Shown: positions 1 to 23,324 of the stretch, in pieces | How the letters are laid out: each line of letters starts with the position of its first letter | Numbering within the stretch: position 1 is the first letter of the stretch | Virus record (IMG/VR): IMGVR_UViG_3300032223_003164 | Coordinates: 1-42,783 of that record | Length of the DNA stretch: 42,783 nucleotides | From: a virus | Direction: 5' to 3' (one strand) | Program-made: the position numbers and the translations under genes | Notes under the pieces: model-generated | Databases searched by the model: none | Told to the model about the DNA's origin: nothing | The model's input: only the letters and a program-made list of their open reading frames with translations

Positions 1-1665
1 CTCTGATGCAATCTTTGCAAAGTGATCCATTTGATTTCTGCTCCCCGCCACGAAAGGCGTATTTGTTTTTATATTTTTGCTTCTTTCATTAGCAATTCTA
101 ATGACATTATCAATACTTTTTTGCACTTGAACATTATTATTTAAATTTTCTTTCAAATTTAATATACTTTGTGTTAAGTTCAAAATTTTATTGGAAGATG
201 AACCTTTTTGAGTACTAGCAAAAACTTCTCTTTTGCCATCTCTAGAGGCCCAAACCAAATTGTGAACGCTAGAGGCTAAAGCAACACCGCCTCCAACTTG
301 ACTATTTTGAACTCCAGGTAGAGTAAAATCCATCACTTTACCTACAGATTCAGTTGGTGCATAATTAGCCAAACCAACATTGGCGTTCATTGGAGAAGCT
401 TGTGGTGCTTGTCCTTGTTGCATATTTTGAGGTTGATTTATTTGCTGAGGTCTTTGACCAGAACCAACATCAATTCCATCATCAATCATGTCTTGCATAG
501 TTGATTGAAGTTCTGCCATTGATTTGGTTACTTTGCCTACGTGTCCCAAATCAACATTATCTTTTCTTGCAAACATATTCATCACTGCAACTTCTAAGAA
601 GTTCAATGATAAATTGATCAAGTCAAGTATATTTAATCCAGAAGCAGGATCAATTCCAAGAGCTTGTAAAACTGCAGCAACAGTTGAATTTTGATTAGCA
701 CCTTGGCCAGCTAATAAAGGGCCACCAACAAGTGTTCCAGCTTGTTGAGCAAGTCTTACTGCTGTTTTTGCAGTAGAATTTGCTGTTCTCAAACAATTTT
801 CGTACTCAGATCTAGAAGAAGATTCTTGTGGAGAACCTTGCAATGCTAAAACAATATTTGCAGAAAGTTCATTTGCTTTCTTTTCCAAATTCATTGCAGC
901 ATCGAGCACATCATCTACATCATAAATTTCTTGAATTTCGCAAGCTTCAAAAGCACCATCACCAACACAGCTTAATTCAATAAATTTTACGCCATAGTTC
1001 TTTTCATATGCTTTCTTGCCAGATTCGGGATAAATTTTGCCTTTATATTTCTTGAGGTGTTCACAATAATCTCTTTCAGTGTATGCTTTATTACCGCAAA
1101 TTGAACATACACCCCATTCAACACTAGCGCCCATTGAAACATCATGAATAACACCAGTGCGAATATTTCTAGCAATATCAGGATAAGCTTCTTCATCTAC
1201 AAAGAAAGTACAATAAACACAATCTTCTTCTTCATCCCATTCAGCATAAACAACCATTCCTTTGGCTTGTTCAATATCATCATTCTTGTGGTTAGTGTAA
1301 ATTGGCACACCTTCGAATGTTTTGTACGACGGGATTTTTTTACCTTTGATTTCTTGTTCTTTGAGTAATTCTTCTCTTGAAAACAGGTCGCCATTAGCAT
1401 TAACAACATCTGCATCAATTGCTCTGGCTCTAACCCATAAAAGTTTAGCACCCTTACGAGCTTGCATTTCCTTAACAATGTCGAAATCTTTGTATTTTTC
1501 TAGGACTTCTTTTGGATCAGCATAGAGAGATTGAAGACCGATCTTTGCAGCTTCTCTCATATTAGATGAAGCAGTCTTAATAATATAATCTCTAGCTATA
1601 TTTCGGTCATTTTCGTTGAGAAAACTATTGATAGTAATAGCTCCTCCTTTTGCAACCTTGTACAT
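1..1665 (-). CDS. Prohead (head maturation) protease, C-terminus beyond window
   Basis: Likely serine protease that cleaves head proteins during capsid maturation. The open frame runs from ATG at 1665 to the left edge (555 codons, no stop). An AAGGA ribosome site lies about 9 nt upstream of the ATG. Residues about 76-180 resemble phage prohead proteases: ANGDLFSREEL near 90, then a candidate catalytic His126 (YTNHKN) and Ser177 (DVSMGA). Cys187, Cys190, Cys201 and His203 directly after look like an inserted zinc site. Residues 250-555 are helical, then Gln/Asn/Pro-rich, and may be a fused scaffold-like region. It lies directly downstream of the portal gene, the usual order in tailed phages. 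The family is assigned by motif and context, not by a search. Confidence 0.75.
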   Translation of the reverse strand, partial: MYKVAKGGAITINSFLNENDRNIARDYIIKTASSNMREAAKIGLQSLYADPKEVLEKYKDFDIVKEMQARKGAKLLWVRARAIDADVVNANGDLFSREELLKEQEIKGKKIPSYKTFEGVPIYTNHKNDDIEQAKGMVVYAEWDEEEDCVYCTFFVDEEAYPDIARNIRTGVIHDVSMGASVEWGVCSICGNKAYTERDYCEHLKKYKGKIYPESGKKAYEKNYGVKFIELSCVGDGAFEACEIQEIYDVDDVLDAAMNLEKKANELSANIVLALQGSPQESSSRSEYENCLRTANSTAKTAVRLAQQAGTLVGGPLLAGQGANQNSTVAAVLQALGIDPASGLNILDLINLSLNFLEVAVMNMFARKDNVDLGHVGKVTKSMAELQSTMQDMIDDGIDVGSGQRPQQINQPQNMQQGQAPQASPMNANVGLANYAPTESVGKVMDFTLPGVQNSQVGGGVALASSVHNLVWASRDGKREVFASTQKGSSSNKILNLTQSILNLKENLNNNVQVQKSIDNVIRIANERSKNIKTNTPFVAGSRNQMDHFAKIASE

Positions 1666-1790: not shown

Positions 1791-4151
1791 TTATAAATAT
1801 TCCGAATCACCCTCACCCATACCTGTTCTCTTTTTGATGACTTTGATTAGAACATTCAAACAATCTTGTGGGTGATCATTAATTTCCTTATCAGTAAATC
1901 TAATTATAATCCAGCCATTAGCAGCTAATTCAGAATCTCTACGTTTATCTTTTGCAATTTTATCTGGATTGTTATGCCAAATCTCACCATCTGCTTCTAT
2001 TCCAATTTTAAGATTAGGAATAGCTGCATCTAATTGATAATCCATTGTAGGACCAGCAGAATATTGTGCATATAGTGGATATGGCATATTCAAAGACATC
2101 ATTAAACCATAAAGTTTTTTTTCTAAGTTAGTAAACATTTTGGGTTGTTGTGAAACGTCTACTTTCTTTTTTGCATACTTCATAATTGATTCATTTTCAT
2201 TTGCAGAAAATTTATATAATTCTTCAAGAGCATAATTGTTCAAAGGATGAGAATTATTTCCACCTAAGAATGGAGTGTTAATAGGTCCGAATAAACCATC
2301 ATATTCATCAGGTAAAGGTCCAAGAGATCCTCTTCCAGTTACAGGAGTTAAGGACTTTAAGAAACCTTCATGGGCAGCAGATTTTATTTTTTTGCTTGCT
2401 GTTCTGATTCCAGAATTATTTGCTTCGAGTCTCTCATTGTAAATTTCATTAATTGTCGAGCTTGCAAATTTATAAAATTTATTCATTACAGATGCAGTAG
2501 GGGCTGGAGAAGGAGCACCACCAGGTGCTGGAGGAGGAGCAGGTGCTGCGCCACCAACAGCTAAATCTGCAGGAGGAGGTGCGCCCATACCACCAGACAT
2601 GTCAGGAGGCGCAGCACCAAAACCTTGTCCTGTAACATTTCCACTTTGGAAGCTCAAAGAAACATTCGGAGTACCAAAGCTTTGATCATTTACAAAGTTT
2701 GCCCCTTGCTCAAATCTCAATCTTTCAATTTCTTGATCTGAATCTAAACCAAAAGCTTCAATAAGAGAAACGTTGGAAATAACACCATTTTGATTAGCTG
2801 TAACAAGCATTTGAAGCTTACCAGTATCATCACGTAGTTGAAGGTCATCAAACTTAATTTTAGGATAAACTAGTTCATCCTGTCCTCTTTCACCCTCAAT
2901 TACAAATCCATTCCATTTAGCAACTGGCATAAAAACATTTTGTTCAATCCAGTGTGCAACTTCTCTTCTAAATGTCTCTAATCTTTGAGCCATAGCAAGA
3001 AGACCAACTTGTGCATTACCATAAGTTGGACCCTCACCATTTAAGAGAGCTTTGTTGAGCATAACGCCGTCTAAAATTTCTTGCTCAATTAATTCAAATT
3101 CACCAGTGAGAGGGTGAATTTTGCCAGTAGCTCCATACCACTCGAGATCAAAGTTATGGTGAGTTACAAGAGTTAAGTTTGGATCATTGGCGATAGATGC
3201 CAATTCATCTTGAACATTATCAATATCTTCTTGTGATGCTGGTCTTGTATCACTACCAATCTTAACAACTTTAATTGGTAAGATAAGACGTTCAGCAATC
3301 ATATATTGTGCCTGACGTAATTTATCTTTATATGTCAGAATTGGGAATAATGGACGAATCATAGAAATTCCATAATCTTCCCAAGGGTTTGATCCATATT
3401 TAAAATGATGAATAGAAATAGGATTAAGTTTGATAGGGTTACCCTGAATAATCATTTTCTTGATATTGTCAGGTATAGCATCATAAATCTCTTTAGGATT
3501 TCTTTCGTTTACAATTCTAGTTTCTTCAGCAGATGGACGGTAAGCATAACTACCAGCTTGATCAATCATTCCTGGAGTTTTTATTACAGAATCTGGATTA
3601 AGAATTGAAATTGATTTCCAAGTAGCACCATCATGTTGGCATTCTTGATTTTTGTCGTCATCCCAGTTAGAACCGTGGCAATGCGGACAATCAAGAGAAA
3701 GCAAAACAAATGAATCACCCAATAAGTGATATGTTTTAGAAATTTCTGGTAACCATTTTTGGAAATTTAGTGATTCAACTAACTTTTCAAAATAATCCTT
3801 GACATAAGAAGAAGAACATTCTAACTTCCATCCAGAGAAAGGATAGTTGGTATAGAAATTTATGGCTGCAGCAATTTTTGGTTCGTTGTTTCTCCACCAG
3901 TTTGCCCAAAGATAAACTTCACGACGAGCATTTGGAATTTGAAAAGATGATGGAGTTAAGAAAGGCGAATAGAAATTAGGAGCTGTTGTAACTGTATTTA
4001 TGCTAGCAGTTCTTGTTACACTTGGACCTAAACCTAGACCAATTCTACTACTTGCATAATTTTTGTCTACACTTGTTGTGCTAGTTGGTGCTCCTGATAC
4101 TTGTGTTGCTGCTGTTCTGATAGCAGAAGCCAATGATGTTCTATTTGCCAT
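1791..4151 (-). CDS. Portal protein with C-terminal DUF559/Vsr-like nuclease domain
   Basis: Dodecameric portal vertex protein through which DNA is packaged. The 786 residues split into a portal body (about 60-480), a Pro/Gly/Ala-rich linker (about 510-553), a helical stretch and a C-terminal domain at about 671-776. The body has portal-like features (WANWWRNNEPKIAAAINFY near 82; helical EQEILDGVMLNKALLNGEG near 356). It also holds a possible zinc cluster, C155-P-H-C158 ... C171-x-H173. The C-terminal domain matches the PD-(D/E)XK fold of DUF559/Vsr proteins: MDYQLD at 703-708, IEADGEIWH at 718-726, D735-KRRD, then GW and RF at 746-752. Portals normally end before such a domain. The frame is continuous, so this is a true fusion. 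It lies between a run of unknown genes and the protease. Confidence 0.8.
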   Translation of the reverse strand: MANRTSLASAIRTAATQVSGAPTSTTSVDKNYASSRIGLGLGPSVTRTASINTVTTAPNFYSPFLTPSSFQIPNARREVYLWANWWRNNEPKIAAAINFYTNYPFSGWKLECSSSYVKDYFEKLVESLNFQKWLPEISKTYHLLGDSFVLLSLDCPHCHGSNWDDDKNQECQHDGATWKSISILNPDSVIKTPGMIDQAGSYAYRPSAEETRIVNERNPKEIYDAIPDNIKKMIIQGNPIKLNPISIHHFKYGSNPWEDYGISMIRPLFPILTYKDKLRQAQYMIAERLILPIKVVKIGSDTRPASQEDIDNVQDELASIANDPNLTLVTHHNFDLEWYGATGKIHPLTGEFELIEQEILDGVMLNKALLNGEGPTYGNAQVGLLAMAQRLETFRREVAHWIEQNVFMPVAKWNGFVIEGERGQDELVYPKIKFDDLQLRDDTGKLQMLVTANQNGVISNVSLIEAFGLDSDQEIERLRFEQGANFVNDQSFGTPNVSLSFQSGNVTGQGFGAAPPDMSGGMGAPPPADLAVGGAAPAPPPAPGGAPSPAPTASVMNKFYKFASSTINEIYNERLEANNSGIRTASKKIKSAAHEGFLKSLTPVTGRGSLGPLPDEYDGLFGPINTPFLGGNNSHPLNNYALEELYKFSANENESIMKYAKKKVDVSQQPKMFTNLEKKLYGLMMSLNMPYPLYAQYSAGPTMDYQLDAAIPNLKIGIEADGEIWHNNPDKIAKDKRRDSELAANGWIIIRFTDKEINDHPQDCLNVLIKVIKKRTGMGEGDSEYL

Positions 4152-4158
4152 AACATAT

Positions 4159-4164
4159 ATTATA
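4159..4164 (-). promoter_or_regulatory. Candidate -10 (TATAAT) 7 nt before portal ATG
   Basis: A perfect TATAAT on the minus strand ends 7 nt before the portal ATG, and no Shine-Dalgarno is visible. A start point at the usual distance would fall on or next to the ATG, giving a leaderless message. No convincing -35 was found, and TATAAT can arise by chance in AT-rich DNA. Confidence 0.35.
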
Positions 4165-4184
4165 CCGTTCTAAAAATAAAGAAC

Positions 4185-11821: not shown

Positions 11822-13933
11822 TTATCGCCTATTCAAATTAACCATTTTTGATCTTGGTAATCTGACCATAATTTTTGAAGTAAGACATTCGTAAGCCACA
11901 GCAGCTACAGCATCACAAATATCATCTTTATATCCAGATAATGCTTCTATGTAATATCTTTTTCCCTTCCATTTTTTTTGCAAGAATAAAAATTGAATTT
12001 TTGCTTCTTGAATTTCATTTAATGAAATCAATCTATTGTCTGAATCTCGATATTCTCCACCAGATAAATCATAGATATCAATGCGATCATCTCTTACTAA
12101 TTGAGAAAGTTCTGTGTAAATTTTTTCTTTATATTCTTTATTGAATTGACGCTCTACAATTGGGATTCTTCTTGATTGCAAAGTTATAATTGAAGATTGT
12201 GAATTCCATTGATCAATACTAACTTGTTTAAATTTAAATTTTCTATGTAAATCAATTACATAATCTTCAACATCTTTTTCTTTCACTGGTTGATTTTTAG
12301 TTCTAGGGTTCCAGAAATGAATATGGTCAATTACAACTCTTTTCAAAGGTTGAAAATCTGGTCCAATTTGACCATACATATTTTCTGTATGAGCAACGAC
12401 AAGAGCATAATAGTCAGAAGTACGAGCTGGGTCTAAGTGGCAAAAATATTCAAAATGTCCTTCTGCTTGTTCTTTTCTTCTAACCATGGACATCGAGGAG
12501 AACATTCTGTCAACATCTTCTGAGTTAAACATTGGGTCAGATGAAGAAGCTCCAAATTCTGCCCCATATTGCATTTGAAATTCTTGAGGATCTTTTTTCT
12601 TTTGACTATCTAGCCATTCTTTGTCAATGTTTGGATTTGTAAGCCATGTTGGAAGTCTCATCACAAGAGTGGTAGGATCTTCTTGTCTATTTTCATGCAA
12701 ATCATAAAGCAAACCAAGAGGGCCTTTTGGGTTTGAAAGAAGCATCATTTTTCCATCTTTGCCAAATGTAGCAAGAGATGGTTTTAGATCATCATAAAGA
12801 GCGTAGTCAACACCAGATTCAGGATTATCTCCAGCCATAGCAGCAACTTCGTCCATAATGATCGACCAACAAGTTAAACCGACAAGACCTGAAGCATTAC
12901 TAGAACCACATCTAAGCACCAAAGAACCCGCAAAAAGATTGATATTTTGCTCTTTTCTTCTTACATTCTCTTCTCGGTCATGTTCAGTATAGAATCTCAT
13001 TTCTAGCTCAGTATCTTTGCCAATATAAGGAGCAAAGAAAGGAGATGCTAAAACAGTTTGCTTGATTTTTGAGAAGATTGCTTTTTTAGCTTGTTCTTCA
13101 TTACGAGCAACATTGAGAAGAACAATTTCATCGAATTCCATCAACCCATATCTTGCTTGAGGATGACCCATAGAAATTAATCTATAAAGCTCATAAAGAG
13201 CCATGGCAGATACAAGGAACGATTTTCCAGAACGTCTGCCAAGAACTAAAACTAATTCTTCAAATTTATATCTTTTAGTGCATTTTTCTTTAACTTGCAA
13301 TCTAAGTTTTGGGTCAAATTCTTCTGAATAAAGTAAATCTGATTCACTTTGAAATGCATCAATAATTGGTCTTGCTTCTAGTAGCTCCACTTGTCTTTCA
13401 GCATCAGGGTTCGTAGCTTCATCTTTTGCTAATTTATATCTCTCTTCTCTGACATTATTATCAAGACGTTTGCATTGGAGACAAGGAGAATTGACTACAT
13501 TAAAAATAGTTTTAAATTGCCTACCTTCTGATCTAGCTTTTAAAAACTCATTTTCATTTTTCTGAATATAATGCCAGACACAACCTTTGCAGTCTTCTTG
13601 ATTGTCAGATTCATCTATAACAAGATTTGTATTGCCTTCTTGCCCCATATAAAAACATTTCAAGATAAGTTTTTGCCAGGGATAAGGCTTTAAATTACAA
13701 AAATATGGATGTTCAATAAATGTAATGATATCTACGATTTGATCAGGGTTAAATCTATCTTTTGAAGGTTTAATAGGAGGAGCAACTTCTGATCTTGTGG
13801 CAGGAGCAATCTCATCAACAAAATCATCTGCATATTCAGTATCTTTGAATAATGCAGTAACAGAATTTGCTTGTTGAAGTAATTGATTTCTTAATTCTGT
13901 TGGAGACTTAGGAACTTGTGTTGGTTTTCTCAT
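11822..13933 (-). CDS. terL: Terminase large subunit (packaging ATPase-nuclease)
   Basis: Motor that pumps DNA through the portal and cuts the concatemer. The 703 residues carry the ATPase motifs GRRSGKS (Walker A, 232-238), WSIIMDE (Walker B with catalytic Glu, 356-362) and the coupling motif LLSNPKG (398-404). The RNase H-like nuclease has Asp501 (CHLDPARTSDYY), Asp574 (VSIDQWN) and Asp670/671/674 (YKDDICDA). An N-terminal insertion has paired cysteines C115/C118 and C151/C154, a possible zinc knuckle not typical of TerL. The start overlaps the preceding stop (TAATG at 13933), coupling it to the candidate small subunit. The portal gene is not adjacent as is usual, but about 7.7 kb further along. 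Confidence 0.95.
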   Translation of the reverse strand: MRKPTQVPKSPTELRNQLLQQANSVTALFKDTEYADDFVDEIAPATRSEVAPPIKPSKDRFNPDQIVDIITFIEHPYFCNLKPYPWQKLILKCFYMGQEGNTNLVIDESDNQEDCKGCVWHYIQKNENEFLKARSEGRQFKTIFNVVNSPCLQCKRLDNNVREERYKLAKDEATNPDAERQVELLEARPIIDAFQSESDLLYSEEFDPKLRLQVKEKCTKRYKFEELVLVLGRRSGKSFLVSAMALYELYRLISMGHPQARYGLMEFDEIVLLNVARNEEQAKKAIFSKIKQTVLASPFFAPYIGKDTELEMRFYTEHDREENVRRKEQNINLFAGSLVLRCGSSNASGLVGLTCWSIIMDEVAAMAGDNPESGVDYALYDDLKPSLATFGKDGKMMLLSNPKGPLGLLYDLHENRQEDPTTLVMRLPTWLTNPNIDKEWLDSQKKKDPQEFQMQYGAEFGASSSDPMFNSEDVDRMFSSMSMVRRKEQAEGHFEYFCHLDPARTSDYYALVVAHTENMYGQIGPDFQPLKRVVIDHIHFWNPRTKNQPVKEKDVEDYVIDLHRKFKFKQVSIDQWNSQSSIITLQSRRIPIVERQFNKEYKEKIYTELSQLVRDDRIDIYDLSGGEYRDSDNRLISLNEIQEAKIQFLFLQKKWKGKRYYIEALSGYKDDICDAVAAVAYECLTSKIMVRLPRSKMVNLNRR

Positions 13934-15566: not shown

Positions 15567-18305
15567 ATGTGGTACTCAAGAATTATCGAATCTGCAACTG
15601 CCTGGGATGTCCTTTCAACTAAAGAAGTTGTTTGGAGTGGCTCTTTTTCTAGAACATTTAAAGATTTTTCATTTTATAGCTCAACTCAGATGCCTACTAT
15701 GACTGCTATGTTAAAGTTCTTAGCTGAAATAGAAAAAGGCAAAAATAACGATTCTATACTTGATAAATATTTTGAAAAAGCTAAAGATGATCATGTTGTA
15801 ATGGCTGACATAATTAATTTTGCTAATGGATTATCAAAATTTATTGATACTGAAATGAAAAAGCAAGGAAGTTCTGCCAACACAGATATGATGAAAGTTC
15901 TTGATTTTTTGGGGAAATTAAATAGTTTCGCAAAATCTCAAGGTCAAAAAGGCAACAAATTAGGAAACGAAATTCCTGATGCTGAAAAAGCAAAATCTTA
16001 TGTCAATTCTACTTTAGGCATAGGATTTACGACACTTAATTTATTAGTTAGAAAAGGCACCGAAATAAGTGATTCTCTAGCCCTTTTTATGATGCGTGGT
16101 GATGACAAAGCATTATTGGGAATACCTGATTCTGAACAAAGAGATATGTTGATAGATCAATTAAAACAACAGAAACCTGAATTAGAAAAGTTTGAAAGCT
16201 ACGAAGCTGCTATAGAAACAATTTGGAGTGGTGAAATAAAGAATTATCTGCCCCTATTGAAAAGTTTTCTTTTTTCAGGAATTGATCCACCTCAAATTTT
16301 ACATATGATCATTCAGATATTAAATCAATCTGATATAGAACAAAAAGATGTTGTTAACATGGTTATGGGCTTACCTACAGAGTCTTTAATTGACACACTT
16401 ACTAATTTAGAACAATATTCCCAGTATGATGAATTCACATCTCCTTTGGCTAAAAGATTATATAACGTAATTGGTGAATATGAACTTAACTCAAATCCTC
16501 TACTTGTTGGAAAACTTAAGAGAAGCAAAACATTTACTGATTATGTAGATTCATTAGGTGATAATTGTCAACCTATGTACATCATAAAAGGAATTGCAAA
16601 ACCTGAAGTGATTATCAGGTATTTGGAAAAAAACCCAGAAGATTTTGAAAAATTTGATATCAATCTTTTAAATAGTTTGGGAGATGAGATTAAAAAACAA
16701 ATTATTGCTCGTGGAACTGCAGCAAAAGCAAGAATTCAATCTGATGGCTTAGCTTTGTTAGAAAAAGCTGCTCAAAAAGGTGTAATTTCAATCACCAAAG
16801 CATCAGATACTTCTTACAATTTTGCATATGGAAAAGGTCCCAAAAATCAACCAATTCAAGAAGGTTTGTCTGAAAGTGAATTGAGACAAAAAAACAAATC
16901 TGACGAAATTTTTGGAAAAGTTTATCAATCTTATGAAGATCGTATGAAGCAAGAAGCTCCTTTTGCTGGTGTCAGTGAAGAAGATATTGAAACATATGCC
17001 AATCAGATGGTCATCATAGAATTTAGTACTTACAGCTTAAAAAGTTTTTTAGCAGAAAACAATGCCCCAAAAATGAAAATTGGTCCTGTAGATTTGCTTG
17101 ATGAAAAATGGGGCGGATTATTTGTCCCAAGGTTTCCAACAAAAGATAGAGGCCCAGTACCGGCAATTTTGATTAAAACTGATATATGGAATCAACTTGC
17201 TTATCATCAAGCATTAGCAGAAAATATCGGTATGAATGATCAAAATTATGTTGAAGCTACTAGAAGACACGAAGTTGCTCACGCATTACAATATTTACAA
17301 TCTGGTGATATCACAATGCAAGATTCTATTGCATTAAATCCTGAACTAACACCAGAAGAAGCATATATTTCAAATCCATCAGAGCTATATGCAAGAATTC
17401 ACGGAGACATTCCTTATCTTTCTAAAATATTTGATGCTCATATTGGCAACTTAATGTCTGATAGAAAAATCTATGAAGCTGCGAAAGAACAATGGATTTT
17501 AGATATTCAAGATGAAATGGTTCACTTAATGTCAGGTGGAACTAATGCTACAAGATTGCTTGCAGATATGGAAGCTGGAAGATTTGGAACTTTCACTACT
17601 GATTCTGGTCAAACCATAAAATTATCAGACCCACTTGAAGCAATTAATAAAAAATTACAGCGCCAAAGAAACAAACTTGAGATGATTTTTCACGAAACAT
17701 TTCAAATTCAAGGCAGGAGAGATTTCAGAAGAGGCTTGATTAGTAAGAAAAATCAATTAGCCCAACAAATACAATCTACCCCTATTTATTCCCCAGAAAG
17801 AACACATCTTGAACAAGAACTAAAAGATGTAGAAACTCAATTGGTAGAATCTGGAAGAATGTTAATATTTGATGTCAAGGATGTATCTGAAGCTGTAGTT
17901 GAAGGCTATATGTCTGATTATTATTCAAAGATTGCAGAAGCTGTAGCCAATGGATTACTCACTACAGATATTGTTAATCCAGAAGGCGAAGATAGAAGAA
18001 AAGAAAACGAGCAATTAAGAGAACAAGCTAAAAAGACACAAGATCCTCCAACAGCTCAAGATATTAGACAACATTCTAGATTTCAAATTCAACAAACAGA
18101 ACCAATTCCAAGTGGTAGAAAAATTGATGTTGTTATTCCTAGATATAAAGGTCCAGGAAGACCACCAGGCAATTTCCCAGGATTTGATGATGCTGAACAA
18201 GATGAACAACAAGTTGATCTTTCAATTGAGAACGATGAAGACAAGACCGCAAGTGTATTCAATCATCGAGTATCAATCAAACAAAAAATCTTCTCCAAGA
18301 ATTAA
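15567..18305 (+). CDS. Large zincin-like metalloprotease-domain protein with MWY tag
   Basis: 912 residues. The recognisable part is a zincin active site: H568-E569-V-A-H572 in RRHEVAHAL, with a likely third ligand Glu606 in NPSELYARIHGD, the spacing of gluzincins. Residues 1-500 are helical and unrecognised. After the active site come helical/coiled parts (about 690-790) and a Pro/Gln/Asp-rich tail (about 815-912). It opens with MWYSRII, like three other genes here. Its size, its tag and its isolation on the plus strand suggest a virion-associated or injected protein, perhaps a protease acting in the host or during assembly (inference). Its 3' end overlaps the convergent sigma gene by 33 nt. 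Confidence 0.75.
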   Translation: MWYSRIIESATAWDVLSTKEVVWSGSFSRTFKDFSFYSSTQMPTMTAMLKFLAEIEKGKNNDSILDKYFEKAKDDHVVMADIINFANGLSKFIDTEMKKQGSSANTDMMKVLDFLGKLNSFAKSQGQKGNKLGNEIPDAEKAKSYVNSTLGIGFTTLNLLVRKGTEISDSLALFMMRGDDKALLGIPDSEQRDMLIDQLKQQKPELEKFESYEAAIETIWSGEIKNYLPLLKSFLFSGIDPPQILHMIIQILNQSDIEQKDVVNMVMGLPTESLIDTLTNLEQYSQYDEFTSPLAKRLYNVIGEYELNSNPLLVGKLKRSKTFTDYVDSLGDNCQPMYIIKGIAKPEVIIRYLEKNPEDFEKFDINLLNSLGDEIKKQIIARGTAAKARIQSDGLALLEKAAQKGVISITKASDTSYNFAYGKGPKNQPIQEGLSESELRQKNKSDEIFGKVYQSYEDRMKQEAPFAGVSEEDIETYANQMVIIEFSTYSLKSFLAENNAPKMKIGPVDLLDEKWGGLFVPRFPTKDRGPVPAILIKTDIWNQLAYHQALAENIGMNDQNYVEATRRHEVAHALQYLQSGDITMQDSIALNPELTPEEAYISNPSELYARIHGDIPYLSKIFDAHIGNLMSDRKIYEAAKEQWILDIQDEMVHLMSGGTNATRLLADMEAGRFGTFTTDSGQTIKLSDPLEAINKKLQRQRNKLEMIFHETFQIQGRRDFRRGLISKKNQLAQQIQSTPIYSPERTHLEQELKDVETQLVESGRMLIFDVKDVSEAVVEGYMSDYYSKIAEAVANGLLTTDIVNPEGEDRRKENEQLREQAKKTQDPPTAQDIRQHSRFQIQQTEPIPSGRKIDVVIPRYKGPGRPPGNFPGFDDAEQDEQQVDLSIENDEDKTASVFNHRVSIKQKIFSKN

Positions 18306-18839
18306 TTTCATTTGTTCAAGGGCTTTTGATAATCTTTTTGAAAAAGCCCCTTGAGTAATTCCTAAAGTTTCTGCACATTCTTTTTGATCTAATCCATCAA
18401 AGAAATAAACTTGGATTACTTCTCTGCTTTTTTCATTCAATTGATCCATGGCTTGATGGATACAAATAACATTGTCAATCTTGTTGAATGGATCATCAAA
18501 CTCTTCAGGAAAATAATCATCATCTGAAATTTCTTCTTTTGGAAAATATTTATCAGTGGTGTATCTAAATAAATTTATATCAACTCTTGTGGATAGAAAA
18601 TAAGAAAAATAAGATAATTTTGGGTCGTATTGTTCTATTAATTTTTTAAGAACAAAAATACAGTCGCTTAAGATATCTTCTCTATGTGATGACAGTCGAG
18701 ATTCTTTTTGAATAATTCTTTTAACAGATGAAATGAAAAGGGGTTTATAAAATTCATATAAATCAAAAAGCGCAGTATCATCTCCAGCTTTGTATTTATA
18801 TAAAAGCTTATTTATTTCATCATAATTATTCTCGGCCAT
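18273..18839 (-). CDS. Sigma-70 family RNA polymerase sigma factor (ECF-like)
   Basis: Redirects RNA polymerase to phage promoters. The 188 residues contain a region-2-like segment (about 8-95: RREDIL-type SHREDILSDCIFVLKKL and the FSYFLSTRVDINLFR helix). Region 4 is clear (127-178), with a helix-turn-helix at LDQKECAETLGITQGAFSKRLSKAL. Regions 1 and 3 are absent, as in ECF-type factors. It is the last gene of the run purA-like, dnaN, holA. A TATAAT sits 6 nt before its ATG, so it may also be expressed on its own. The stop (TGA) lies inside the antisense of the zincin gene. Confidence 0.85.
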   Translation of the reverse strand: MAENNYDEINKLLYKYKAGDDTALFDLYEFYKPLFISSVKRIIQKESRLSSHREDILSDCIFVLKKLIEQYDPKLSYFSYFLSTRVDINLFRYTTDKYFPKEEISDDDYFPEEFDDPFNKIDNVICIHQAMDQLNEKSREVIQVYFFDGLDQKECAETLGITQGAFSKRLSKALEQMKLILGEDFLFD

Positions 18840-19849: not shown

Positions 19850-20947
19850 TTAATCCATAGGGAACAGTAAATGCTTAAAGTTTTCAGCTTCTAACATCAA
19901 TAAAATAAAATCGTTATGCCTGATAAAGTTTAGCTTTATTTTTCTATTGTCAAGCAAATCCAAAGCTCTGATCAAATGAGCAGATACATATGACACTGAA
20001 AATAGTTCATAATTTTCTATGTCAATCGAATCTACTACTGCATTTTTTTCATTGCTATTTCCTGAAATGACAAGCTTATTGATATCTAGATTCAAGCTTA
20101 TCATATGGGAATTTGCAATGCTAGAAACAAACTTTACTGACTTGACTAATGCATCTTTTTCTAACTCAAGAGACAAGAAGAAACTATCACTGAAGAATTG
20201 ATTGAAGTTTGAGAATATTTTTTCAAAAGTATTCTTCTCAAGGTTGCAAAACAATTCTCCATCATTCCAAGTGAGATAAAGCTTACTATTATGTAATGAA
20301 AATACTACTCCTGATATTTTTTCAACATAATATAAAACAATATCAGAAATGTTCTTTGAAATTAAATAAGATGGTTGTAATTCATACTTCTTGCCAAATA
20401 CACTAATCCTATGTTTGTCTGATGATTGAGTATTAATTTTTCCATCTTCAATAAACCAAAGAATAGAAGTGTAAGGATGTTCGTCAAAATCAGGAGCACA
20501 AGAAAACGAAGTCATCTTAATACTGTGGACAAAATCATCAACAGTTATATCTAGTGGATCTAAATTGCTAGAAAAATCTACTGTGAAATTATCTACAGGA
20601 GCAGTAGCCAAAGACACTCTGGTTTTTTTATTACCAAAGATGAGCAAATTATCTTCCACATTATAAATAAATTGAATCTCTTCTGTTGGAAAATTATTTA
20701 CAGCATTATAGAAAGAAGAAATGTCTAATCCAAAAGTGCCATCTTCAGTGGGTTCAACATTCTTAAGTAAAAATTTAGAGCAGCAAAAATTGTTCTCTGA
20801 TTGCACATATAGTTTGCCATCAGATGAATGAAAAATAAGACTACTCGATGATGTTTTGTTTTCACGCATCGACAGTTTAGATTTCTCAATTTTATTAAGT
20901 AAGGCAAAACATACGAGATGTTCTGCCTTATTCAACTTAAATTTCAA
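19850..20947 (-). CDS. dnaN: DNA polymerase III beta sliding clamp
   Basis: Ring-shaped processivity clamp for the phage DnaE polymerase. The 365-residue length is that of bacterial beta clamps. Recognisable features are SSDKHRISVFG (175-185, equivalent to the TDGHRLA loop between domains 1 and 2) and the C-terminal HLLFPMD, matching the typical beta-clamp end that forms the partner-binding pocket. The start overlaps the preceding stop as ATGA at 20944-20947, coupling it to the purA-like gene. holA follows 1 nt later. Confidence 0.85.
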   Translation of the reverse strand: MKFKLNKAEHLVCFALLNKIEKSKLSMRENKTSSSSLIFHSSDGKLYVQSENNFCCSKFLLKNVEPTEDGTFGLDISSFYNAVNNFPTEEIQFIYNVEDNLLIFGNKKTRVSLATAPVDNFTVDFSSNLDPLDITVDDFVHSIKMTSFSCAPDFDEHPYTSILWFIEDGKINTQSSDKHRISVFGKKYELQPSYLISKNISDIVLYYVEKISGVVFSLHNSKLYLTWNDGELFCNLEKNTFEKIFSNFNQFFSDSFFLSLELEKDALVKSVKFVSSIANSHMISLNLDINKLVISGNSNEKNAVVDSIDIENYELFSVSYVSAHLIRALDLLDNRKIKLNFIRHNDFILLMLEAENFKHLLFPMD

Positions 20948-21939
20948 TGTAGTTGTCCCTGAAATTCTACTTTAGTGTTAGGAAGATAGATCTTTATTTC
21001 TTTCAAAATGTTAGAAACAAATGTATCCTCATCAGCACAAGAAATCAACATTCCATTCTCATAATAATTCCAAGCACTAACAACTTGTCGCAGAACATCC
21101 ATTTTGTTAATGATTAGTTTAGTGACACCATTCATTTGACAAGCAATGATTACTTCTTGGATGTTTAGCCAGTCGATTTGTCTTGGTCTTCCTGTTGTGG
21201 CTCCATACTCTTGACCAATTTCTCTGAGTTGCTCAAATCGATCATCATCTTTTTGGTATCCTTTAGCTCCAACATAGGTAGAATAACATTTGATAACCCC
21301 GACAACATCCCGTACTTGCTTAAAATTGAAACCATTATTTAATACTGCTCCTACTCCAGTGTTTGATGAAGTGACATAAGGATAATCACCAAAGTCAACA
21401 TCAAGCCAATATCCTTGAGCTCCTTCAGCTAAAAACTTCTTCGGTTCTGAATGAATTAGATCGTGCATATTGACAAGATAAGGTGCTAATTCAGGTACAT
21501 CTTTGGCACGAATTCCTGTACGGGCCACTTTGTCTCTATAACAAGGACCGTTACCAGTGCGAGTTGTTCCAATAGTTGTATCTTTGGAATCTTCTTCAAT
21601 ATGCTCTTGGGTAATTATATGGGCGTTTTCTGCAATCTTTAGAAGCGATGTGTCAAATCCAAATCCTTCAAGATACTTAAGTTCGTCAAATAATTTTTGC
21701 GTATTGATAACACAGCCATTACCGATGATACTAGGCACACCATGCAGAATGCCGCAAGGAACAAGATGTGTAACAATTTTCTCTCCATTGAGGTAAATTG
21801 TATGACCAGCATTTCCGCCACCATTAAAGCGTAATACATAATCATAATCACTAAACTGAGCCATTTGATTGGCTATTTTTCCCTTGCCTTCATCGCCATA
21901 TTGCATGCCGATAACTACATCAACAATTGAAGTTTCCAT
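20944..21939 (-). CDS. purA: Short adenylosuccinate synthetase-like enzyme (PurA/PurZ family)
   Basis: Family enzymes join aspartate to IMP (PurA) or, in some phages, to dGMP (PurZ, the diaminopurine pathway). Motifs present: GDEGKGK (15-21, keeping Asp16), NAGHT (43-47), IGTTRTGNGP (123-132), AEGAQG (171-176), YVTSSNTGVGA (188-198), TGRPRQ (249-254) and the NKMD base motif (278-281). At 331 residues it is about 100 shorter than cellular PurA and lacks the C-terminal Ser-x-Gly-Pro region. Short length is typical of phage versions. Asp16 speaks for a PurA-type mechanism, since well-studied PurZ enzymes often replace it. Substrate is undecided. It is first in the run with dnaN, holA and sigma, under a good promoter. 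Confidence 0.85.
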   Translation of the reverse strand: METSIVDVVIGMQYGDEGKGKIANQMAQFSDYDYVLRFNGGGNAGHTIYLNGEKIVTHLVPCGILHGVPSIIGNGCVINTQKLFDELKYLEGFGFDTSLLKIAENAHIITQEHIEEDSKDTTIGTTRTGNGPCYRDKVARTGIRAKDVPELAPYLVNMHDLIHSEPKKFLAEGAQGYWLDVDFGDYPYVTSSNTGVGAVLNNGFNFKQVRDVVGVIKCYSTYVGAKGYQKDDDRFEQLREIGQEYGATTGRPRQIDWLNIQEVIIACQMNGVTKLIINKMDVLRQVVSAWNYYENGMLISCADEDTFVSNILKEIKIYLPNTKVEFQGQLH

Positions 21940-21975: not shown

Positions 21976-22599
21976 TTATAATTCTATATCTTTTTCTTCA
22001 TCAAAAAATTCTCTATCATCCACACCATTCATTTGAAAATCAATGTGGGCATCAGGGAATTTTTGTCTTATTCTACTAATAGCTTCGTCTTTGCTGTAAT
22101 CTTCTAATGGTAAATTAGTGGTGAAAACAACCTCGTGATGAATTTCTTCTGCATCTTCTTCATCACTATATAATTCTTCTAAACCAGGAATAGACAGTTG
22201 ATCTGTAATTAGTTTACCCTCTTTATCAGATCCTGCTGATAATGCCTTAAATGACAAAGGATCCATAAAGAAAAATTTCCAAACACCATTTTCAGGAAAT
22301 AATAAAATTTGTGGATAAAGCTCAAAATGTTTTCTTGTGCCTTTATGTTTGTCAGCAATTTGTTCGACAGGATCTTTTGATGGATCGAAAACAAATTTAT
22401 CATCACCTAAAACTTCGATAGGATCTTTGCCTTCTTTTCTTGCTCTAGTTAAGGCAAAATCAGAAAATGTTTCAGGATTTTTATATACCTGATCAAAATC
22501 TAAATCAGAAGCGTCAATTGCTATTTTGGTAAATTTATCAGCAAGTTTGAAGCAACCTAAATTGTCCAAAATAGATGCTGTTCGAAGAAAGTTTATCAT
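21976..22599 (-). CDS. Unknown protein with N-terminal LDxxG-AD helical hairpin
   Basis: Function unknown. Residues 7-30 (TASILDNLGCFKLADKFTKIAIDA) repeat the LD-x2-G-x4-AD-x5-IA pattern found in the gene at 10302-10760. The remainder of the 207 residues is acidic mixed alpha/beta with an Asp/Glu-rich tail (DDREFFDEEKDIEL). The start overlaps the stop of the sigma gene as ATGA at 22596-22599, so the two are coupled. A regulatory partner of that sigma factor is one possibility. A virion protein is another, given the shared N-terminal motif. Confidence 0.65.
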   Translation of the reverse strand: MINFLRTASILDNLGCFKLADKFTKIAIDASDLDFDQVYKNPETFSDFALTRARKEGKDPIEVLGDDKFVFDPSKDPVEQIADKHKGTRKHFELYPQILLFPENGVWKFFFMDPLSFKALSAGSDKEGKLITDQLSIPGLEELYSDEEDAEEIHHEVVFTTNLPLEDYSKDEAISRIRQKFPDAHIDFQMNGVDDREFFDEEKDIEL

Positions 22600-23285
22600 A
22601 ACTTACTTTTTGGCACTTTATGAGTTGCATCCTTTTTCTCATCATCTTTGAATTGGACATAAACTTCAGATGCTTTTTTTCTAATTCTTGTAAGTGCATT
22701 ATCAACACATTTTGCTGGAACATTTAAGGTTTGTGAAATTTCTTTATATGATGAATTATGACCATACTCTACAAATATATCTGCTTCTAATGGTGTGAGT
22801 TTATCCATCAACATTTCAGAGTTCAACTCTAGTTCTTCTCTGACAATAAGATCTTCTACCAAATTTACTTCTGGAGATTCATCATAAGGATTTTTCTTAT
22901 CAGGAATGTAGTCTCCTAAAGAATGAAAATTGCCATCATCATTTAAAATAAAAGGAGCATCTAACGAAATAGAATCATTCAACGCTGAATTCTTCATTCT
23001 TTTCGCAGATGCTATGGCTGTGGCAAGATGTCTTTTACAAACTAAATTTACGCAAAAGTTCTTGAATGTTGTGTCTTTGGTGCAATCATAGGAATTTACT
23101 GCTTTAAATACACCTAATCTCAATTCTTGCATTACATCTTCTTTATCTCCGCCGACTATAAAGAAGTGAGGTGCAATTTTCTTGAGATCCGGTTCTACCA
23201 TCTTAAGCAACTTTTTAAAGGCTGCTTCATTTCCTGCTTTTGCTCTATTTACTAATCTTACTATTCTAAAATCTTCGGTTGCCAT
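22596..23285 (-). CDS. Sigma-70 family factor, SigH-like
   Basis: 229 residues from ATG 23285, which has GGGAG at 23291-23295 and a 5-nt spacer. A GTG at 23303 is less likely. Region 2 (about 8-105) resembles SigH-type factors: AKAGNEAAFKKLLKMVEP, GGDKEDVMQELRLGVFKAVNSYD, FCVNLVCKRHLATAI. Region 4 (157-205) has the HTH SYKEISQTLNVPAKCVDNALTRIRKK. The tail is Lys-rich. It follows dnaX after a 39-nt gap and is coupled to the next gene. It would give the phage a second promoter specificity. Confidence 0.85.
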   Translation of the reverse strand: MATEDFRIVRLVNRAKAGNEAAFKKLLKMVEPDLKKIAPHFFIVGGDKEDVMQELRLGVFKAVNSYDCTKDTTFKNFCVNLVCKRHLATAIASAKRMKNSALNDSISLDAPFILNDDGNFHSLGDYIPDKKNPYDESPEVNLVEDLIVREELELNSEMLMDKLTPLEADIFVEYGHNSSYKEISQTLNVPAKCVDNALTRIRKKASEVYVQFKDDEKKDATHKVPKSKL

Positions 23286-23324
23286 CAAAACTCCCGAAGG
23301 CACAATTCATTACAAAACTTCTTT

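Follow-up and report, generated by a model that had tools for sequence, protein, structure and literature searches.

Does the portal gene at this locus really end in a DNA nuclease, and what would a nuclease do at that position? Portals are usually viewed as passive rings or valves, and the terminase, or a separate helper such as T4 endonuclease VII, is credited with the nuclease activity of packaging. The window, that is, the whole stretch of DNA analyzed here, is a virus record of 42,783 bases (classed as virus by IMG/VR) from a group of uncultured giant bacteriophages. We regard it as part of a giant phage because contigs carrying its clade relatives reach 378,848 bases. Genes for a ribonucleotide reductase, a RecJ-like protein, a primase, a UvsX-like protein, and a DNA polymerase are found elsewhere in the window. 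On the minus strand, positions 1791-4151 form a complete ORF with an ATG start and with matches in Pfam and PHROGs. The frame is uninterrupted over 786 codons, as an earlier note made from the letters had stated. The same note had divided the protein into a portal body, a Pro/Gly/Ala linker, and a nuclease block, and this architecture is confirmed with the addition of a helical spacer at approximately residues 553-672. Judged from identity and conservation together, the ORF almost certainly encodes a portal protein that continues through a linker and a helical spacer into a C-terminal PD-(D/E)XK domain.

The portal core (residues 56-490; 2682-3986, minus strand) is recognized by both profile and fold. 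Portal_Mu (PF06074) matches residues 234-467 with 33 bits against the Pfam cut-off of 23.9, and portal PHROG 16240 matches residues 58-419 (E 2.2e-32). In a Foldseek search with the full-length AF2 model, which is of low confidence (pLDDT 56.9), the best 50 of 153 PDB matches (E <= 10) are all portal, neck, or connector entries. Since this model is poor, no claim is built on the relative placement of the domains. The gene also lies in the packaging neighborhood expected of a portal. The terminase large subunit (TerL) gene (11822-13933, minus strand) is located approximately 7.7 kb upstream, and a head maturation protease-like gene (1-1665, minus strand; phrog_18299, E 5.3e-22), which is cut by the window end, is the next gene downstream. 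By analogy with the stoichiometry of portals, each ring would carry approximately 12 copies of the nuclease.

The nuclease domain occupies approximately residues 673-776 (1824-2135, minus strand); positions 1824-2141 correspond to residues 671-776 of the fusion protein. DUF559 (PF04480) matches residues 701-772 with 29.5 bits against the Pfam cut-off of 20.6 (E 7e-7), and MTES_1575 (PF18741) matches residues 703-771 with 36.6 bits, slightly under its cut-off of 38.2 (E 5e-9). In NCBIfam, the domain scores 27.2 against a cut-off of 218 for the DUF559 equivalog and 20.9 bits against 97.85 for the Vsr subfamily (TIGR00632). Both scores are far under their cut-offs, and the latter indicates that the domain is Vsr-like but not Vsr proper. 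By sequence, a profile built from the domain retrieves 3hrl (E 1.7e-6) and 3r3p (E 1.3e-5).

The AF2 model of residues 545-786, built with 45 sequences (pLDDT 77.8, pTM 0.77), contains the alpha-beta3-alpha-beta core of the PD-(D/E)XK fold. Among the families listed in the VIA-align run, the best match is NGO0050 (3hrl; Z 9.1, rmsd 1.9, 93 of 94 residues aligned), followed by I-Bth0305I (3r3p; Z 8.6, rmsd 2.9, 96 aligned). Vsr (1cw0) ranks third (Z 7.1, rmsd 3.7, 103 aligned), two mitoribosome chains (Z 6.7 and 6.5) outrank the second Vsr entry 1vsr (Z 6.4), and TnsA reaches Z 4.5, though a Z below 8 by itself may reflect merely a common arrangement. A Foldseek search with the C-terminal model by itself is weak (best E 8.7e-3), with 3r3p and 3hrl as the top matches. 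A PD-(D/E)XK match is thus obtained in both the profile and the structure comparison of the C-terminal block, and the DUF559/Vsr-like identity proposed earlier stands, with DUF559 above its cut-off and a fold matching NGO0050, I-Bth0305I, and, less well, Vsr.

The positions of the invariant residues should be noted. In all 45 aligned fusions (the window and 44 more distinct ones), E677, L680, Y681, D708, E719, A720, D721, G722, H726, K731, D735, R738, D739, G746, W747, R751, and F752 are identical. They include the conserved acidic and histidine residues of a PD-(D/E)XK nuclease (E677, D708, E719, D721, H726, and D735), to which we assign a catalytic role by analogy. All the residues quoted in the earlier note are present, and D708, E719-A720-D721-G722, H726, D735, G746-W747, and R751-F752 are among the invariant ones. 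Contrarily, D704, which was quoted with them, is variable (D in 39, E in 5, and N in 1 of the 45 fusions).

The core and the nuclease are separated by two less conserved parts. The Pro/Gly/Ala linker (residues 512-552; 2496-2618, minus strand), delimited by composition in the 45 sequences and by dN/dS, ranges from 20 to 61 aa in length with a median P+G+A content of 73%. The helical spacer module (residues 553-672; 2136-2495, minus strand) is delimited by dN/dS and the AF2 model, and is less conserved than the nuclease (median dN/dS 0.12-0.16). Expression of the nuclease as a separate protein from an internal start was considered and rejected as a conserved feature, since codon 672 is ATG in 31/45, TTG in 3/45, and another codon (TTA, GGT, CGC, etc.) in 11/45 sequences. 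The ATG or TTG at this codon has no visible ribosome site, which is a weak argument because the real portal starts displayed likewise have no clear Shine-Dalgarno sequence. Immediately 5' of the portal ATG, GAACGGTATAATATATGTT (4152-4170, minus strand), itself without a clear Shine-Dalgarno sequence, is identical across the 11 relatives displayed; its core is present once in the window, which is roughly chance level.

The fusion is found throughout the clade. A whole-protein scan gave 55 loci, and further scans added more divergent ones. Among the 113 loci examined (L002-L117 minus three named phages, many of them one contig fetched twice), 98 have the fusion in a frame that stays open from an upstream stop through to the end of the fusion, a contig end truncates 13, and 2 have a stop in the linker. 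The 98 open fusions reduce to 44 distinct C-terminal sequences, so that the architecture, which the earlier note had described from a single frame, is now found in 44 further distinct fusions. The two loci with a linker stop (L054 and L057) are one contig, which is also L227. It has a single in-frame TGA at L054:9681-9683 with the same frame open on either side, and this TGA may be a sequencing error, a nonsense change, or a site of readthrough. A scan with the nuclease only used clade-derived patterns, which reach close relatives and would miss distant free-standing copies, and 40 of its 105 pattern matches are unconfirmed. It gave 65 viral contigs; the core is joined to the nuclease in one open frame in 64 of them, and the 65th is the contig with the TGA. 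A frameshift or an assembly chimera is therefore unlikely to lie behind the fusion.

Outside the clade, the portal lacks this domain in the relatives compared. DUF559 matches exactly once in each of the 14 long clade records, each time in what position and frame length identify as the portal ORF. No DUF559 match is found in the genomes of phage G, LR745208, or Tunturi_5, whose portals match the core at 28.5%, 23.5%, and 29.3%, respectively, and end without a nuclease domain. Since these three outside portals are without the domain and the fusion is clade-wide, the fusion appears from sequence comparison to be a derived trait of a clade whose portal cores differ by up to 48% (approximately 50% identity at the widest). 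The portal has matches in 204 records of named phages, none of them across more than 80% of its length. The nuclease by itself matches 62 records of named phages at E 0.01, and none is labelled portal among the best 40 of the 62 (one is unannotated). In a portal-alignment scan of genome contigs, none of 384 pattern matches was confirmed, and no prophage relative was seen.

The nuclease evolves about as slowly as the portal core. In pairwise Nei-Gojobori comparisons (94-127 non-independent pairs per region, picked by a synonymous difference of 0.05-0.6 in the core), the median dN/dS is 0.027 in the core, 0.194 in the linker region (residues 491-552), 0.120 in residues 553-640, 0.160 in residues 641-672, and 0.031 in the nuclease (residues 673-776), absolute values being rough because dS is high (medians 0.9-1.3). 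The distances in the core and in the nuclease are correlated with r = 0.93 and a slope of 1.16 (44 sequences, the N-terminally short L018 being dropped), and none of 999 permutations gives a correlation as high. By these measures the predicted active site is under strong purifying selection and is conserved as strictly as the ring. The pattern is that of housekeeping-like evolution, as of a working part traveling with the portal, and an arms-race pattern does not fit it. This strict conservation, matching that of the ring, suggests that the domain probably has a genuine function on DNA at the portal.

The possibility that the portal domain replaces the nuclease of TerL is rejected. The TerL nuclease motif residues D501, D574, D670, D671, and D674 are present in the window and in all 14 clade records checked (these residues fall outside L146, which is a fragment of one TerL), and their retention suggests that the portal domain is an additional nuclease. 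As a separate observation, the TerL genes of four relatives (L139-L142 and L146; records G003, G005, G009, and G011) hold an in-frame, intein-like interruption of approximately 1 kb near the Walker A motif.

Where would this additional nuclease act? The C-terminus of the portal presumably belongs to the crown. The C-termini would then leave the crown inside the capsid, and the Pro/Gly/Ala linker would tether the nuclease to the side of the channel that faces the head, with approximately a dozen nucleases displayed around the DNA path. From there, the predicted nuclease, distinct from that of the terminase, could nick or cut phage DNA passing or resting at the portal. Its task might be to remove branches, flaps, and irregular DNA during packaging, or to trim DNA at head completion. 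A head-side, portal-tethered nuclease acting on DNA in packaging or head completion is the reading that we tentatively adopt, from the conservation pattern and by analogy with known phages. A further-reaching form of it, in which the portal ring itself is the enzyme, a dozen active Vsr-like nucleases on its head side forming an essential second DNA-processing center besides the terminase and editing or trimming the entering or resting genome, is conceivable though doubtful.

Several points stand against the packaging reading. Should the C-terminus be inside the capsid, the nuclease may fail to reach a branch stalled at the terminase, which lies outside. An active nuclease beside packaged DNA has to be specific or under control. 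With 14 K+R against 17 D+E in residues 673-786, the domain is not basic. In addition, published fusions of portals with enzymes are read as injected effectors in the available parts of PMC5512222.

The last point leads to the strongest alternative, in which the portal carries approximately 12 nucleases in the head. They may be released by the head protease, and after passing into the cell together with the DNA they would cut that of the host or of a rival. The fusion has an enzyme domain joined to a portal, as in the injected portal-effector (polyvalent) class. In 37/45 members, residue 595 is the last of a [SAG]-x-E tripeptide, presumably the type of site cleaved by the phiKZ protease, and a head protease-like gene adjoins the portal gene; together with the head-side position, these observations favor delivery. 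The tripeptide occurs easily by chance, however, lies in the spacer and not in the linker, and is missing there in 8/45 members. Conflict effectors are generally expected to be mosaic and fast-evolving, whereas this nuclease is about as slow-evolving as the core and no domain swap is seen, which favors packaging or head completion over delivery. As for location, excerpts of PMC9958956 place the clip of the T4 portal outside the capsid and its stem, wing, and crown inside, where an effector could be carried. As for precedent, portal or MuF fusions to a PBECR RNase, 2H, and InPase are read as injected, as far as the available parts of PMC5512222 show. We consider injection rather unlikely on balance.

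It is improbable that the domain only binds DNA, or some terminal structure, at the portal, with cutting incidental or absent. Nuclease folds can be reused for binding, but a predicted active site whose residues are invariant in 45/45 fusions is beyond the demand of binding alone, and the non-basic composition of the domain does not suit such a role either.

The earlier note had also offered a captured selfish nuclease. This option, taken here as a selfish or homing nuclease that joined the portal recently and is of no use to the phage, fares badly. The homing nuclease I-Bth0305I is among the closest solved structures, and the PADLOC homing-nuclease model gives a match (E 1e-6). Contrarily, the domain is present in every complete portal gene of the clade that was found (one being split by the stop) and always at the same site, and the mobile context and patchy distribution of a homing endonuclease are not seen among them. 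Each long record has a single DUF559 match, and close relatives of the domain are seen only with the portal. The strong purifying selection and the distances tracking those of the core likewise make a captured nuclease very improbable.

The DNA-processing genes differ between the clade and phage G. RusA-like matches are found in 8 of the 14 fusion-clade records (G001-G014), 3 of them above the cut-off, and not in phage G (NC_023719.1), which has a RuvC match (E 7.7e-23). RuvC is below the cut-off in LR745208 and is without a match in the 14 clade records, an absence that, like the others in this set, is weak since the records may be incomplete. Endonuclease VII (PF02945) matches none of the 14 clade records, an absence that is also weak since none of 14 control genomes is positive either; one match below the cut-off occurs in LR745208, and the fusion protein itself has no Endonuclease_7 match (Pfam, E 0.1). 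The Pox_A22 search matched nowhere, controls included, and carries no information. Three of the RusA-like ORFs, inspected by eye, show the acidic pattern expected of RusA, suggesting that RusA is probably what the clade uses for junction resolution and that the portal domain is not required as the only resolvase. Although the absent RuvC and endonuclease VII matches would suit a portal domain that is the sole Holliday-junction resolvase of these phages, relocated to the portal, the RusA-like genes make this the least credible alternative, a point that also counts against the packaging reading. A TnpB/OrfB-like gene, recognized by eye, lies at L150:40-1209 near the RusA-like gene of record G005.

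Self/non-self discrimination by DNA modification was also considered. A PurA-like adenylosuccinate synthetase gene at 20944-21939 (minus strand) keeps GDEGKGK, and its PHROG label suggests a PurZ-like protein. Among solved proteins, however, PurA (E 1e-61) is a far closer match to it than PurZ (E 6e-15). Matches to N6_N4 methyltransferases are present in 4 of the 14 clade records. Other genes are recorded here in their own right. The head protease-like gene at L054:10637-15970, in which an intein-like insert is seen by eye, has 1,777 codons against approximately 1,400 in L058 and L065, and that of L099 has 1,780. In the window, an ORF of 912 aa (15567-18305, plus strand) lies among mostly minus-strand genes and has no PHROGs, Pfam, or PADLOC match at E 0.01, and two different sigma-factor-like genes are found at 18273-18839 and 22596-23303 (both minus strand).

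If a portal permanently carries a conserved DNA nuclease, it can be asked whether DNA processing takes place on the head side of the channel, how the packaged genome escapes destruction, and why only some giant phages need such a nuclease. If the domain is injected instead, it would be an effector of unusual stability, with the portal itself as its delivery vehicle.

Comparison with known systems places the domain and its carrier separately. The domain shares its fold with the DUF559/MTES_1575/Vsr-like endonucleases NGO0050, I-Bth0305I, and Vsr, but here it forms the C-terminus of a portal. The closest named portal is gp14 of Bacillus phage G, with 28.5% identity over query residues 1-486. This protein of 648 aa ends in a Pro/Gly-rich tail without a nuclease, whereas the portal of the fusion clade carries one. 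In T4, according to excerpts of PMC9958956 and PMC10893049, endonuclease VII (gp49) is bound to the portal gp20 and frees stalled branched DNA. It is a nuclease located at the portal as here, but a separate protein, and the fusion protein has no match to its family. T4 gp4 is a head-completion nuclease of restriction-endonuclease fold whose activity is required for packaging, as described in parts of PMC7824862. This TnsA-like protein is also separate and is likened to the fusion through its description, while the model of the fusion domain aligns only weakly to TnsA. The likeness to gp49 or gp4 would thus be one of comparable role, not of descent. In the open-access literature available, we found no report of a portal joined to DUF559, Vsr, a REase-like domain, or another DNA nuclease, and the main text of PMC5512222 has no occurrence of REase, Vsr, or DUF559. 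Fusions of portals with enzymes are already published; the version with a DNA nuclease is new as far as that literature shows. The PBECR RNase, 2H, and InPase fusions described in the available parts of PMC5512222 have an enzyme on the portal in common with the present one, which differs in that the enzyme is a PD-(D/E)XK DNA nuclease, clade-wide and slow-evolving.
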